A DNA stretch of 64,000 bases from Acidobacteriota bacterium (GTDB lineage: Bacteria; Acidobacteriota; Terriglobia; Bryobacterales; Bryobacteraceae), in contig JACPNQ010000020.1 of NCBI GenBank assembly GCA_016185425.1, positions 1 through 64,000 on the forward strand, given 5' to 3'. Within the stretch, counting starts at the first letter, position 1. Each line of letters starts with the position of its first letter. A model generated the notes under the pieces. It saw only the letters and a list, made by a program, of their open reading frames with translations. It searched no databases and had not been told where the DNA came from. The position numbers were made by a program, and so were the translations under genes. Below, one piece after another: positions 4,594 through 9,792 of the stretch.

Positions 4594-5454
4594 ATGTCTG
4601 AACAGAACAAACAAACCTGCCGGCGGCTGCTCGAAGAGGCGTGGAATAAAGGCCTGCTCGCAGCAGTCGACGCGACCGTTTCCAGGGACTGTCGCTTCCA
4701 TGACCCCGCGTTCCCGTCAATCGAGCCTGGCGCGGAGAGCTACAAGCGGCACATCCAGGAGTGCCGGGACGCATTCCCAGACCTTTCCTGCTCGGCCGAG
4801 GATATCATCGCGGAGCAGAACGAGGTCGTGATCCACTGGACCGTCCGGGGGACGCACCGCGGGAAGTTCCTCGGCATGGATGCCACGGGCCGCTCGATGA
4901 TGATTTCCGGAACGTCCATCCACCGGTTGGAGAAGGACAAGATCGTGGAACTGTGGGCCGACTGGAACCTGAAGTCGCTCCAGGACCAGCTTGGACTCGG
5001 CATGACGGAGCACGACGCCAACAAGGCCTTCGCGCGGCGTTTCGTGGAGGAGATCTGGAACCGGAAGAAGCCCGAAACGATCGGCCAGTTCGTGACCGAC
5101 GACTACACGAGGTTCTCCCCGAACGGGACCTTGCGGGGGGCGAAAGGATTGCGGCAAGAATACGATATCTACACCTCCGCCTTCCCTGACTGCCACATTC
5201 AAATCGAGGATGTGGTGTGCGAGGGCGACCGGGTTGCTCTACGCTTCACCGCCTCCGGTACTCAGACCGGAAAATTTATGGAAGTGGCCGCCAGCGGGAA
5301 GCCTGTCAAGGTTCAGGGCACGGCCATGCTGCGTATTGCCAACGGCAAGGTGGCCGAGGAATATGCGGTTTGGGACACGCTTGGCCTGATGCAGCAGATC
5401 GGCGCAGTAGGCGAATTTGCAGGCGCGACCCGAACCCAACAAACATCGCAATAG
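4594..5454 (+). CDS. Tandem SnoaL-like (NTF2-fold) protein
   Basis: The 286-residue protein has two copies of a SnoaL/ester-cyclase-like domain, about 1-135 and 138-275. Each has the same order of elements: an EEAWN or EEIWN helix, a D/R-rich strand, FPD, a TxxGTHRGKF or SGTQTGKF strand and a final W/D segment. The fold is a cone-shaped pocket used for polyketide cyclisation, dehydration or small-molecule binding. The function of duplicated members is generally unknown. AAGGAG lies 7 bases before the ATG and fixes the start. The gene appears monocistronic and is followed by decayed DNA. Confidence 0.75.
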   Translation: MSEQNKQTCRRLLEEAWNKGLLAAVDATVSRDCRFHDPAFPSIEPGAESYKRHIQECRDAFPDLSCSAEDIIAEQNEVVIHWTVRGTHRGKFLGMDATGRSMMISGTSIHRLEKDKIVELWADWNLKSLQDQLGLGMTEHDANKAFARRFVEEIWNRKKPETIGQFVTDDYTRFSPNGTLRGAKGLRQEYDIYTSAFPDCHIQIEDVVCEGDRVALRFTASGTQTGKFMEVAASGKPVKVQGTAMLRIANGKVAEEYAVWDTLGLMQQIGAVGEFAGATRTQQTSQ

Positions 5455-5599
5455 GACCACATTGCTTCCTGGCCCGCGATGCGGTGGGTCACGGCGGCAG
5501 CGACAAGGTGCATCGCGGAGCACTTCCCAAAGTCCTCCGTTTTCGGGCGGGAATGCTCCCGATGGACCTGCGATTGTGGACCGCCCGCCGCCGCACCAA

Positions 5600-5985
5600 G
5601 CGTTGCGCCGAAGTTTCTTGTTTCGCTGCGCTTGCCGCCCCGCGCATAAAATTCCAGGCGCGGCGCTCGCAGAGCCGCCACCATCACCGGCGCAGAGCCC
5701 GGCGCGCGCGGCGCCATCCGGCAGAGCCGATCCATCAAGCGCTCGAACACACCTTTCTCCTCGTAGTGATCGCTGTAACTCACTCCGGTGCGCCCGGGGT
5801 GGCACCAGATCTGGCCGCCACGAACAGGAAGCGGAGCCGCGCGGTCGCCGGCTTCGTGTGCCGCAGTGCGGTGGCGCCGGCCTGCGGCCCGCGGTTGACG
5901 AGCATCAGCCAGCAGTTCGGGTTGCAGACCAGCATGGCCAACTGGAAGTGGTTGCCGTTCACGTCGAAGCGCTCTCCGCGGTGCC
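5600..5985 (-). pseudogene. IS1380-family transposase C-terminal remnant, frameshifted
   Basis: Read leftward from about 5985, the frame gives NHFQLAMLVCNPNCWLMLVN and then RLRFLFVAA. A one-base deletion near 5815 shifts the frame. Reading continues as IWCHPGRTGVSYSDHY and FERLMDRLCRMAP. This is the usual end of IS1380-type DDE transposases (LAMLAYNLNCWL ... GVSYSDHYEEK ... RLMDRL). Only the last 110 or so residues remain. The catalytic DDE part is missing and permease sequence starts where it should be. The left boundary is approximate because coding similarity fades into the segment shared with 1-92. Confidence 0.65.
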
Positions 5986-5989
5986 CGGC

Positions 5990-6346
5990 TTTGTGGGCGT
6001 CCTTATTGCGGCAATCGGACTGTACGGTGTGATGGCGCATGAGGTGGCGGGCCGGATACGCGAGATCGGCATTCGAATCGCGTTGGGAGCAAATTCCTGG
6101 GACATTATGCGAACCACGATCCGGGAGGCCCCGGAAGTAGCCGGGCTTGGCGTCCTGGCCGGCATTCACGCATCGATTGTGGGCGACAGGCTTGTCGAGC
6201 CGTTGCTCTACGAGGTACCCACGGGCGATCCGATCACTTTCGCGGCGGCTTCGGTGCTGCTCGCGTTCGCGGCTTTGATTGTGGCATTGGGGCCGGCGAG
6301 GCGTGCTTCGCGACTCGATCCGGTGCAATCGCTCCGAGGGGAGTAG
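5990..6346 (+). pseudogene. C-terminal remnant of an ADOP/MacB-type permease
   Basis: The frame reads AAIGLYGVMAHEVAGRIREIG, and then IRIALGA, GDPITFAAAS and PARRASRLDPVQSLRGE before the stop. This is the last FtsX/MacB permease domain of acidobacterial ADOP proteins. The intact paralogue at 18686-21427 ends the same way (LYGIMAYSVSQRTREIG, DPASMAGA, DPLTALRER). About 115 of about 800-900 residues remain. The 5' break coincides with the edge of the IS1380 remnant on the other strand, so insertion and later deletion is the simplest history. Confidence 0.75.
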
Positions 6347-7053: not shown

Positions 7054-7085
7054 TTGACTCTGGAGTTGGCTCCAGACTGTATGCT
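7054..7085 (+). promoter_or_regulatory. MerR-type promoter with dyad in a 20-bp spacer
   Basis: A -35 box TTGACT (7054-7059) and a -10-like TATGCT (7080-7085) are separated by 20 bp. That is longer than the usual 17 bp and is the hallmark of promoters activated by MerR-family regulators. The spacer holds the inverted repeat CTGGAG/CTCCAG centred on it. Transcription would start near 7092, almost at the ATG at 7093, so the regulator mRNA is probably leaderless. The promoter drives the regulator and the genes behind it. Confidence 0.75.
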
Positions 7086-7092
7086 TGAAGGG

Positions 7093-7536
7093 ATGGGTAC
7101 CGCATCTCTGCAAATCGGCAAAGTCGCCCAAAGAACCGGGTTGAGCGTCGATGCGATCCGCTTCTATGAAAAGTTGGGGCTTCTGCCGCGGCCGACGCGG
7201 ACACAGGGCGGCTACCGGCTGTATCAGGAGCGTGAGATTGCCGACCTTGCGTTTATCCAGAAGGCGCAGCAGCTCGGGTTCTCTCTGAATGAAATTCGGG
7301 AGCTGTTTTCGATCCAACGCCATCCACAGGAGGTTTGCGCCCACGTCCGCGATTTGATCACGCAGAAGCTGGCAGTCGTCCAGGAGAAAATTGCTGAGTT
7401 GCAAAGGCTGGAGGCGGAGTTAGGCGGCGCGCTGCGGCAATGCCGCACGGCTCTCCAGCAGCCGTCGAAGCGCCGGGACTGCTGCCCGGCTCTGGAAGCG
7501 ATTACGAACCCCGGCCCACAAAGGAAGAAAGCATGA
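7093..7536 (+). CDS. MerR-family heavy-metal-responsive regulator
   Basis: The 147-residue protein has the MerR layout: a winged HTH (IGKVAQRTGLSVDAIRFYEKLGLL), then RTQGGYRLY, a long dimerisation helix and a cysteine-bearing C-terminus. The cysteines are EVC near residue 80 (matching the metal-ligand position of MerR/ZntR), RQC near 118 and a DCC pair near 131. This cysteine set points to a soft metal such as mercury or a divalent metal, but the spacing differs from Tn501 MerR, so the metal is uncertain. The ATG at 7093 was preferred over 7081 because the promoter's -10 box overlaps the latter. The stop overlaps the next start (ATGA). Confidence 0.82.
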   Translation: MGTASLQIGKVAQRTGLSVDAIRFYEKLGLLPRPTRTQGGYRLYQEREIADLAFIQKAQQLGFSLNEIRELFSIQRHPQEVCAHVRDLITQKLAVVQEKIAELQRLEAELGGALRQCRTALQQPSKRRDCCPALEAITNPGPQRKKA

Positions 7537-7850
7537 AAGTTGAAGTTCTCTATTTTTCAGGATGTCCGAACCATGTCCCGGCCGTCGATCGCGTGCGCGA
7601 AGTCCTGGCGCAAGAGGGAGCCCTCGCGGAAATGATTGAGGTGGAAGTGACGGACACGGCCACCGCGCAACAGACCGGCTTTCTCGGTTCCCCATCGATT
7701 CGAGTGGACGGACAGGATATCGAGCCGGCGGTGCGCGGGGCAAGCTCCTTCGGGATGATGTGCCGGAGCTATATCGACGGTGGCCAGCGTAAAGGTGTAC
7801 CACCGCCGGAATGGATTCGCGCGGCGGTGCGAGAAGCGAAAGGGAGATAG
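7533..7850 (+). CDS. Small thioredoxin-like protein of the metal operon
   Basis: The 105-residue protein begins MKVEVLYFSGCPNHVPAVDR, a thioredoxin-fold strand-loop-helix with one cysteine (SGCPNH) where thioredoxins have CxxC. It later has FLGSPSIRVDGQDIEP, the cis-proline strand region. Proteins of this type are common beside mercury and arsenic genes and are often annotated as thioredoxin-family or alkylmercury-lyase-like, though the lyase domain is absent here. It probably handles metal or thiols in the cytoplasm. The ATG overlaps the regulator's stop and has AAGGA upstream, so translation is coupled. Confidence 0.7.
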   Translation: MKVEVLYFSGCPNHVPAVDRVREVLAQEGALAEMIEVEVTDTATAQQTGFLGSPSIRVDGQDIEPAVRGASSFGMMCRSYIDGGQRKGVPPPEWIRAAVREAKGR

Positions 7851-7856
7851 AGTTTC

Positions 7857-8204
7857 ATGAACATCACAAATCGTCTGTGGTTGAGGTTGGTTTGGGCCGG
7901 GCTGATTGTCCTGCCGTTGGGTAACGGTCTGCCGGTGGGGGCCAGCCCAACCCCGCAAAGCGTCGAGCAAACCACTGCCAAGCAAAAGACAGTGCAATTT
8001 CGCATTGCGGGAATGACCTGCGCGGCATGCGCGAAAGGTTTGGAGGCCTCGTTCCGCAACCTGGCCGGGGTCATGAAAGCGGACGTCGATTACAAGGCGG
8101 GACAGGCGCTGATCACGTTTGACGCGGCGAAGCAAAGCGCGGAGAGGCTTTCCAAGTTCGTCGTGAGCTGTGGGTATCAGGTCAAAGAAACCAAGGTAGT
8201 TTGA
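7857..8204 (+). CDS. MerP-like periplasmic heavy-metal-binding (HMA) protein
   Basis: The 115-residue protein has a signal peptide (about 1-30) and one heavy-metal-associated domain with the metal site GMTCAACAKG near residues 57-66. The domain keeps the ferredoxin-like order: VQFRIAGMTC, VMKADVDYKAGQALITFD, GYQVKETK. MerP-type proteins bind Hg(II) in the periplasm and pass it to a membrane partner. The next gene encodes a candidate partner, 3 bases downstream. GGAG in the preceding coding end serves as ribosome site. Confidence 0.8.
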   Translation: MNITNRLWLRLVWAGLIVLPLGNGLPVGASPTPQSVEQTTAKQKTVQFRIAGMTCAACAKGLEASFRNLAGVMKADVDYKAGQALITFDAAKQSAERLSKFVVSCGYQVKETKVV

Positions 8205-8206
8205 AG

Positions 8207-8527
8207 ATGCGCGTCACCGACAAGCTGACTCCGGTCGCCGCGGCCATGAGCGCATTGGCAACGATGGCGTGCTGCTTGCCTCTGGGTATCGCCGGGGCGG
8301 TGGGCGCGCTGGGATTGAGTGTTGCGCTGGAGAGATTGCGGCCGTGGCTGATTGGCCTCGCGGTGATACTGCTCGGCCTGAGTGCCTTTCAGATGTACCG
8401 TGGCCAAAAGAGCTGCCAGCGGCGGAGCCGTCTGAGTTTGCTATTGTTCGGGCTGTCGGCGACGGTCGTGTTCGGCGTGATGGTTTTTCCGCAGCAACTC
8501 GCGGAGCTGATGGCAGCTTTGCCGTAG
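8207..8527 (+). CDS. MerT/MerC-like small membrane protein
   Basis: The 106-residue protein has about three hydrophobic segments. A cysteine pair lies in the first one (LATMACCLPLGIAG), as in the mercury transporters MerT, MerC and MerF, where CC takes Hg(II) from MerP. A second cysteine region (KSCQRR) lies between segments two and three. It follows the MerP-like gene directly. Transport of a soft metal ion into the cytoplasm is inferred from motif and neighbours; no mercuric reductase gene follows. Confidence 0.7.
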   Translation: MRVTDKLTPVAAAMSALATMACCLPLGIAGAVGALGLSVALERLRPWLIGLAVILLGLSAFQMYRGQKSCQRRSRLSLLLFGLSATVVFGVMVFPQQLAELMAALP

Positions 8528-8533
8528 ATTCCC

Positions 8534-9121
8534 ATGAAGCGCACCTGGTCAATTCTTCTGGCGGCGATCGTGGTGGTTGTTCCCGGCGCGGTTTATCTCA
8601 CGAGAGCGGGCCAGTCACCAGCGGGGCAGCCGCCATTGGTCGAAATAAACGGCGCGACACTATCCACTCTGCAATCGGAATTCAACCGGACCTCGGACCA
8701 GACGCGCGTGATTCTGCTGCTCTCCCCGACTTGACCGACTTGTCTGCGGGGGGCCTCCGCGGTCGAAACCATTCTGGACAATCACCCTGCGAGTCCGGTG
8801 GTGGTGTTCGCGGTATGGGAGCCAATTCTTCCGACGGACTGGAGCGCACCGGGCACGAGTGCGCTGCATCGCCTCAATGATCGCCGGGTACGGCAGTTCT
8901 GGGACCCCGGCCATCTTGTCGCCGCGGCCATTAAGAAGGCGGAGGCCTCCGGCCAGCTTCACCCCGAGTGCTGCGAGCGCGAGGGGTTCTTGTGGGATCT
9001 CAGCGCGGCTTACGCACCCGGAGCGCGCTGGAACGACAGGTTGCCGGAGCCAGTTCTGCTGAGCGGGCCCGTGGTGGAAGTTGCGGCTGCGCTGGAATCG
9101 GTCGTGGCGAAGGACAAATAG
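8534..9121 (+). CDS. Predicted selenoprotein, thioredoxin-like UxxC, membrane-anchored or exported
   Basis: One frame runs from ATG 8534 to TAG 9119-9121, interrupted only by TGA at 8732-8734 (codon 67). If TGA is selenocysteine, the protein has 195 residues: a leader (WSILLAAIVVVVPGAVYL), then VILLLSPT-U-PTCLRGA, then 125 protein-like residues (VVVFAVWEPILPTDW, RQFWDPGHL, CCEREGFLWDL). The TGA stands exactly where a thioredoxin-type motif has its first cysteine, after a hydrophobic strand and before a helix, giving U67-P-T-C70. A SECIS-like hairpin follows the TGA at once. Codon use and composition do not change across the TGA. It is last in the metal operon, 6 bases after the MerT-like gene. 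The alternative is a nonsense mutation in a cysteine version, but the exact UxxC placement argues against it. Confidence 0.75.
8735..8765 (+). promoter_or_regulatory. Candidate bacterial SECIS element
   Basis: Directly after the TGA, GCGG (8746-8749) pairs with CCGC (8757-8760) below a loop that begins with G (GGGGCCT). C8744 can pair with G8761, leaving U8745 bulged. CGAC (8736-8739) pairs with GTCG (8762-8765) to form the lower stem. The loop starts 16 bases after the TGA. Bacterial SECIS elements show a stem-loop within about 16-37 bases of the UGA, a bulged U and a G early in the loop. The fold was worked out by eye. Confidence 0.6.
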
Positions 9122-9126
9122 GATTG

Positions 9127-9792
9127 CTAGCTACGCTGTTTGTCGGGTTGCCTTTCGTCACAAATCAAGCGGCCGAGCGTCGCGAATATTTGATCCGCTA
9201 TAGCCGAAATGTCCGGCTGGCCCTGGTCGAACCACGAGCGAAAGGTTACGGCGAGAACGGAAATGGTCAAGCCGGCAAGGATACTTGGCGTCAGATCGTC
9301 TTCAGAACCCTTCCTAAGGCGCCGCGCAAAGGCCTCCGCGACCTGGTCCTGAACCTCAGCCATTCGCGATAGTTGTGCCGCTCTTGCAGCCGGGTACTTC
9401 GCCGCGATCTCCATGATCTTCCGCGTCCGCGGGTGCGCGGCCGACTGTTGCGCAATTTGGAGCACCGTTCCTCGAAAGACCTCGGAGAGCGAGTGGGTCC
9501 GCGGGAAAGCGTCTATCGCGCCGGTGAGATCCGTCCCATAATTCACGATGCCTTGCGCCATCAGATCGCTTTTGGACGAGAAGTAGCGAAAGAAGGAACG
9601 CCGGGATACGCCTGCCCGTTGCGCGATGTCGTCTACGGTGGTCTCGTCGAACCCCTTTTCGGCGAACAGGCCTGTGGCCGCATCCCAGATCGCGTCCCGC
9701 ACAAGCTGCTGCTTCCGCGCTTGCAGCGTCGGGACCATCGCTGCCGGGTGTTCAGCGACCGCGCCGGCGTTGATCGATGGCGACGAATTCAT
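9127..9792 (-). CDS. TetR-family transcriptional repressor
   Basis: The 221-residue protein has a TetR helix-turn-helix near residues 45-75 (TTVDDIAQRAGVSRRSFFRYF) and an alpha-helical ligand/dimer domain. It is divergent from a small secreted protein. The 125 bases between them carry two near-identical palindromes that lie on the rightward promoter, so it most likely represses that gene, and possibly itself. The ligand is unknown. The start at 9792 gives a 20-residue extension ahead of the usual TetR N-terminus; M19 (9738) is an alternative. Confidence 0.85.
   Translation of the reverse strand: MNSSPSINAGAVAEHPAAMVPTLQARKQQLVRDAIWDAATGLFAEKGFDETTVDDIAQRAGVSRRSFFRYFSSKSDLMAQGIVNYGTDLTGAIDAFPRTHSLSEVFRGTVLQIAQQSAAHPRTRKIMEIAAKYPAARAAQLSRMAEVQDQVAEAFARRLRKGSEDDLTPSILAGLTISVLAVTFRSWFDQGQPDISAIADQIFATLGRLICDERQPDKQRS

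Follow-up and report, generated by a model that had tools for sequence, protein, structure and literature searches.

A predicted UxxC thioredoxin-like selenoprotein family of Acidobacteriota, encoded in part beside MerT- and MerP-like proteins

The last gene of a mer-like operon from a soil bacterium of the phylum Acidobacteriota (family Bryobacteraceae) is, as predicted by computation, almost certainly a selenoprotein gene. It lies in the window, that is, the whole stretch of 64,000 nucleotides analysed here (contig JACPNQ010000020.1, positions 1 to 64,000), where a single forward frame of 195 codons (8534–9121) is interrupted solely by a TGA at codon 67 and ends at a TAG (Table 1). The TGA stands in the motif VILLLSPT-U-P-T-C, and 128 codons separate it from the TAG. 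A first-pass annotation of the same DNA had described one frame of this length with this TGA as its only break, which proved exact on re-reading; it had also expected ordinary annotation to split the gene, and translation with table 11 does yield two ORFs, one of 66 amino acids (8534–8734) and one of 107 amino acids (8798–9121). Two features by which bacterial selenoproteins are recognised are present, namely a UGA inside a frame whose protein sequence is conserved before and after it, and homologous loci that have Cys in place of the UGA (11 of 82).

Table 1. Positions of the predicted features of the mer-like operon and its selenoprotein gene in the window
Feature	Position	Strand	Basis
MerR-type promoter/operator: TTGACT, 20-nt spacer with inverted repeat TCTGGAG..CTCCAGA, TATGCT	7054–7085	+	pattern match before merR
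MerR-family metal-responsive regulator	7093–7536	+	Pfam MerR and MerR-DNA-bind; start codon chosen by eye
DF-family protein, Cys form	7533–7850	+	NF049942 "DF family (seleno)protein", 114.1 bits (cut-off 70)
MerP-like HMA metal-binding protein (GMTCAAC), hydrophobic N-terminus	7857–8204	+	PF00403 HMA, 44.6 bits (cut-off 24.8); MerP model, 46.7 bits, under cut-off
MerT-like small membrane protein (ACCLP motif)	8207–8527	+	PF02411, 24.5 bits, under cut-off 32.9; NF033560, 32.3 bits, under cut-off
Predicted selenoprotein gene: N-terminal membrane anchor and thioredoxin-like domain, UPTC active site	8534–9121	+	frame, homologues, predicted structure
N-terminal hydrophobic helix (putative anchor), residues 3–23	8540–8602	+	predicted structure, low-confidence part (block pLDDT 59–72); hydrophobic sequence
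TGA, predicted to be read as selenocysteine (residue 67)	8732–8734	+	state at the site across 82 loci
TGT, Cys70, second active-site residue of UxxC	8741–8743	+	state at the 75 loci with TGA or Cys
SECIS-like hairpin: 8-pair stem starting 9 nt past the UGA, GGC loop 17 nt past the UGA	8744–8762	+	folding, pairing, covariation
Second Cys pair HPECCE, C146–C147	8969–8974	+	rows of alignment A1 (nearest subclade)
TetR-type regulator	9127–9792	other	next gene after the selenoprotein gene

Homologues were collected from 151 relatives and from 396 genomes drawn evenly across Acidobacteriota, all loci thus coming from this one phylum, and the family was found in 41 genomes of the first search and in 48 of the second. 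We read 82 loci (79 stretches, L026, L057 and the window). Left out were 11 places from the search of relatives, namely a short piece (G141) and ten TGA-less places from the window's genus (G004, G005, G006, G009, G010, G012, G013, G015, G016 and G018; five of them, G005, G009, G012, G015 and G016, have R at the site and lack the second Cys), as well as G249:C352 and G264 (weak) from the 396-genome search. The site holds TGA at 64 of the 82 loci, Cys at 11 and neither (R, T or D) at seven, the last group also lacking the second Cys and comprising six loci from the window's genus and one from its family. TGA or Cys, the two states that the first-pass annotation had proposed to look for, therefore fill the column at 75 of 82 loci, and of these 75 loci, 73 have Cys and two have TGA as the second active-site residue. 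On a quick tree built without the site columns, the state (TGA, Cys or other) switches at least 10 times. The frame is kept on both sides of the TGA in the homologues far beyond chance, and the region after it evolves as protein, under purifying selection: in comparisons with the two nearest homologues, substitutions at codon positions 1, 2 and 3 numbered 16, 13 and 53 and 21, 13 and 57, respectively, and beyond the final stop only 41 of 150 bases were identical (one comparison). Two members, L162 (G394) and L169 (G258), carry TGA at both active-site positions (UxxU). At six loci of the window's genus (L114, L115, L116, L117, L119 and L120) neither active-site residue is left (SPTRPESL and similar), with selA and selB still in the genomes concerned; penicillin amidases account for four of 32 scanned upstream genes and, by length, are probably those of this degenerate group. 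Searches for plasmid relatives gave none for the window protein (E 0.1) and none for one distant member (E 0.01).

A SECIS-like hairpin begins shortly after the UGA. For bacterial SECIS elements, section 5 of PMC13188914 gives a loop of 3–9 nt, a stem of 4–16 bp, a G in the first two loop positions, a distance of 16–37 nt from the UGA and an energy of −7.5 or lower, and the window hairpin lies within all four criteria of that section, with a GGC loop, eight pairs, 17 nt and −14.6 kcal/mol. At least five of six hairpin pairs are kept at 51 of the 64 TGA loci, at none of the 11 Cys loci and at none of the seven others; the 13 TGA loci with fewer pairs count against the hairpin and may have other hairpins. 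Across 63 distinct TGA sequences, 86% of the cells of the eight-pair stem are paired versus 70% in shuffles (0 of 1000 reach it), the same stem model slid along these sequences gave 38–56%, and seven or eight stem pairs are kept in 49 of the 63 as against 0 of 10 distinct Cys sequences. Alignment A2 (20 members) contains two pairs changed on both sides, in three and four sequences, and 96.7% of its cells pair versus 92.1% in shuffles, while two of five covariation measures were not above shuffles, which counts against the hairpin: the number of doubly changed pairs was matched in 176/500 shuffles and that of pair types in 500/500. Its folding energy also counts against it, as it does not single out the window hairpin (z −0.61), and mean z versus synonymous recodings does not separate the classes (−0.57 at TGA loci, −0.94 at Cys loci); the argument for the hairpin therefore rests on pairing and covariation. 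An Rfam search and a tRNA scan of the whole window returned nothing.

The host genome contains selA, selB, selC and selD, the four genes named in the first-pass annotation as a check, each over its cut-off (462, 361, 70 and 370 bits, respectively), and the anticodon of its tRNA-Sec (selC) is UCA. Within the sample of 396 genomes, selA is present in 44 of 48 family carriers versus 206 of 348 non-carriers (Fisher p 4e-6; 43 of 47 carriers if G264 is removed), a comparison that assumes that the family search and the selA search drew identical genomes. Among all carriers tested, 73 of 80 have selA over its cut-off. Six draft genomes with TGA loci lack it over cut-off (G047, G057, G076, G249, G285 and G410), which counts against the selenoprotein reading; in G076, selA lies in two pieces near contig ends. 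One Cys-form genome, G473 (99% complete), has neither selA nor selB over cut-off, which speaks for the selenoprotein reading; selA is present in the other Cys-form genomes and in those with the degenerate form.

The window protein is predicted to combine a thioredoxin-like fold with a membrane anchor. A structure model built from alignment A1 (20 members, nearest subclade; mean pLDDT 87.8) has a strand at residues 57–63, U67 and a helix at 68–83, and it thus places UxxC at a helix start after a strand, as in thioredoxin-like folds and as claimed earlier for U-P-T-C by analogy with thioredoxin CxxC. Among the proteins that Foldseek matched to the model, at modest scores, are thioredoxin-like proteins, ResA and glutathione peroxidases (GPx) (best match E 3.9e-4, TM 0.45/0.57; three matches with E of 0.001 or lower). 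A profile of the window and 42 of the other 81 loci (A5, 43 members) matched solved thioredoxins weakly (best E 0.025), and in the five alignments shown, all with E 0.025 or worse, the Sec column was aligned every time with the leading Cys of CxxC in the solved protein. With ResA/YkuV-type proteins the window protein has the fold and the place of the active site in common, the sequence matches to them not being significant.

No NCBIfam or Pfam model matched the window protein (Pfam at 0.01, an irrelevant Pfam E of 0.21 aside), the thioredoxin models of both collections included, and the members of A1 gave scattered irrelevant matches only. In A5, two of 43 members weakly match PF00085 Thioredoxin (best E 0.0012) and two of 43 a PDI domain model (best E 0.0043). 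PF00085 is the model behind the thioredoxin entry of a 2026 inventory that lists 119 families of prokaryotic selenoproteins; the two weak matches to it come from distant members of our family. Among the inventory families defined by Pfam or NCBIfam models the window protein fits none; the inventory also holds entries defined by CDD or PANTHER models, such as cd02966 (UxxC) (PMC13188914, as far as its tables and sections were available). A 2006 survey counted three selenoprotein families in Acidobacteria (PMC1794560, available in part), and the deep-Sep paper, which describes the DF family, tested one acidobacterial genome, for which the available part of its text reports no new selenoprotein (PMC12013277). 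We found no paper on this thioredoxin-like family in the literature searched. Fold and UxxC motif are both familiar; what appears to be new, as far as our searches reach, is the family, the dominance of Sec and the fusions to MerT- and MerP-like domains.

Within the operon, the MerR-type regulator, the DF-family gene, the MerP-like HMA gene, the MerT-like gene and the selenoprotein gene follow one another tightly, overlapping or no more than 6 nt apart, and the next gene lies on the opposite strand, in keeping with the claim that the selenoprotein gene closes the operon. The element ahead of merR has the hexamers TTGACT and TATGCT separated by 20 nt with an inverted repeat in the spacer, which we take to be the layout of MerR-family promoters; the operator presumably resembles those of ZntR and CadR. 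Its pattern has one exact match in the window and none in 100 shuffles. A regular expression of this kind matched at six of 82 loci, just before merR in five (the window, L092, L097, L102 and L167) and before the DF gene in L095, and a sigma-70 scan with spacers of 16–18 nt found no promoter at the position of the element. The regulator scores similarly with the NCBIfam models for Zn-type (112.6 bits), CadR-PbrR (111 bits) and MerR (108.4 bits) proteins, each under its cut-off. The matches of the MerT-like protein, which also lie below curated cut-offs, count against our best explanation, as does the finding of no merA over cut-off in the host genome (94% complete). Measured against a canonical mer operon (MerR, MerT and MerP with MerA), the window falls short: MerR-, MerT- and MerP-like proteins are present but under equivalog cut-offs, and MerA is absent over cut-off. 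Specificity for mercury found no support beyond resemblance, the regulator scoring alike with Zn, Cd/Pb and Hg models and no merA being found over cut-off. Elsewhere in the window, 5417–6346 encodes the C-terminal piece of an FtsX-type permease (PF02687), perhaps the remnant of a truncated transporter, as the preceding frame matches nothing; upstream of the operon, 746–2212 encodes a metallo-beta-lactamase protein with two rhodanese stretches.

Using profiles built from the window's own neighbours, which may miss divergent neighbours, and with some loci lying near contig ends, we saw that in many relatives the gene immediately preceding is MerT-like. The clade to which the window protein belongs (33 rows, SH-aLRT 98 on a quick tree) has 25 Sec members, of which 21 are linked to MerT: 15 have a MerT-like gene no more than 800 nt upstream, and six are fused to a MerT-like domain in a single open frame. 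MerT-like and thioredoxin-like domains share one open frame at seven loci altogether (six Sec, one Cys), and an HMA (MerP-like) domain is in the same frame at three loci outside the clade (two Sec, one Cys). NCBIfam models saw the MerT parts of the fusions weakly (E 5e-12 to 3e-3) and HMA strongly (E 1e-16 or better); Pfam saw HMA in both HMA fusions given to the search and, among the seven MerT-like fusions, MerT in L129, MerC in L101 (E 0.01) and nothing in the other five, which counts against the link. The first-pass annotation had supposed that the protein works with MerP/MerT-like proteins on a soft metal. Adjacency and fusions tie these proteins together more closely than could be seen in the window alone, and that part of the claim stood; that the protein would reduce or bind a soft metal is something that we infer, and no merA was found over cut-off. 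Outside the clade the link is rarer: among the 64 Sec loci as a whole, a MerT-like neighbour, a MerT-like fusion or an HMA fusion is present at 25 and lacking at 39, which counts against the claim as well, and we therefore propose a metal role for the window's clade only. When nearby HMA, merR and DF genes are counted too, 31 of 64 Sec loci are linked and 33 have none of the four neighbour types; the MerT/HMA link is found at 3 of 11 Cys loci and 0 of 7 degenerate loci. Loci without MerT showed no common metal theme among varied neighbours (32/36 upstream and 26/26 downstream gene calls, made with a crude caller). Two further in-frame TGA codons were seen in relatives. At L140:1635–1940 (G363), a DF-family protein has TGA at SFGURIYREG, where others have Cys; the operon also holds an HMA–Sec thioredoxin fusion and may thus encode two selenoproteins. 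At L165:6167–6484 (G244), on the other strand near a Sec family member, a MerP-like HMA domain has TGA in its metal site (GMTUGAC).

With moderate confidence we propose that Sec is inserted via the hairpin into a membrane-anchored thiol-redox partner of the operon's MerP/MerT-like proteins, and that a MerR-type regulator makes the operon metal-induced. Selenocysteine would be inserted at the UGA by SelB and tRNA-Sec, directed by the downstream hairpin, and the N-terminal helix would tether the product to the membrane; its thioredoxin-like domain probably faces the periplasm, a side suggested by the positive residues that precede the helix. In Tn21 MerT the C-terminus is periplasmic as well, which would fit the MerT–thioredoxin fusions. 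The selenolate of Sec67 would attack and Cys70 would resolve, so that the Cys pairs with which the MerP-like and MerT-like partners bind metal would stay reduced, able to accept and pass on a soft metal, and the MerR-type regulator would activate the operon in the presence of that metal. Computed support comes from the Sec codon, the hairpin, the Sec machinery, the fold, the operon and the fusions; the periplasmic side, the redox role, the substrates, the induction and the identity of the metal are what we infer. The protein is apparently a redox partner of heavy-metal transport proteins, and it is likely to work as a UxxC reductase whose targets are the Cys pairs of its metal-binding partners, the main alternative being a direct relay of metal by the selenolate.

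One form of such a relay, which we regard as rather unlikely, is that the Sec thioredoxin together with the MerT-like, MerP-like and DF proteins makes up a distinct selenium-dependent soft-metal system of Acidobacteriota, in which the selenolate would strip the metal from the MerP-like carrier and pass it to the MerT-like transporter, transport thus being Sec-dependent. It is likewise unlikely that Sec is mainly a metal ligand of a selenoprotein whose selenolate, with Cys70 and in the nearest subclade CC146–147, hands a soft metal from the MerP-like to the MerT-like protein. The operon, the fusions with metal-binding domains, the additional CC pair, the two UxxU members and the many Sec sites predicted to bind metal in section 7 of PMC13188914 speak for this ligand role, but a thioredoxin-like fold with UxxC at a helix start is the classic redox arrangement, no MerT/HMA link is seen for 35 of the 39 Sec members that lie outside the window's clade, and the CC pair is found in only eight of 20 A1 rows. 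The 39 Sec members without a MerT-like or HMA link and their varied neighbours would suit a selenoprotein of general envelope redox function, for which the mer-like operon is one of several recruitment sites; we consider this improbable to the same degree in view of the MerT link of 21 of 25 Sec members in the window's clade, six of them single open frames, the MerP-like fusions in other branches and the metal-type operator ahead of the operon. Readings of the TGA as a normal stop, as an error of sequencing or as a mutation in a pseudogene, which the two separate table 11 ORFs might suggest, were rejected as extremely improbable on account of the exchange of TGA (64 loci) with Cys (11 loci), the protein-like substitutions after the TGA and the paired, covarying hairpin.

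The thiol-redox partner that we favour can be set beside known systems. SaoT (NF040730) of the SAO organometallic operon is, like the window protein, a UxxC thioredoxin-like selenoprotein, grouped with organometallic/metal-related selenoproteins in the table and in section 9 of PMC13188914. None of the 20 A1 and none of the 43 A5 members match NF040730, however, and the neighbours here are MerR, DF, HMA and MerT-like; no Sao model matched the five operon proteins at E 1 either, and by these tests the operon does not belong to the SAO system. NF045683 (MerT/CopZ fusion-like heavy metal transport selenoprotein) and NF041115 (UxxU metal-binding (seleno)protein) have Sec in a MerT/HMA setting, as here, and the window gene's neighbours match these models below cut-off. 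Judged by name, those two families carry Sec in the metal-binding protein, whereas here Sec lies in a thioredoxin-like domain distinct from the Cys-type MerT/HMA that it adjoins or is fused with. The second gene of the operon belongs to the DF family (NF049942) as described in the available part of PMC12013277, in its Cys form and distinct from the UPTC protein.

Taken as predicted, this is an apparently new selenoprotein family that is mostly Sec and not Cys (64 of 75 loci with an intact active site) and is spread over the sampled phylum; the models searched miss the window protein, and annotation under table 11 would split its gene. Because MerT-like and Sec-thioredoxin domains are fused in nature, the idea that selenium chemistry takes part in the handling of heavy metals can be put to the test. 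The hairpin, being conserved, can serve as a model of SECIS elements in a phylum in which 250 of 396 sampled genomes carry selA.
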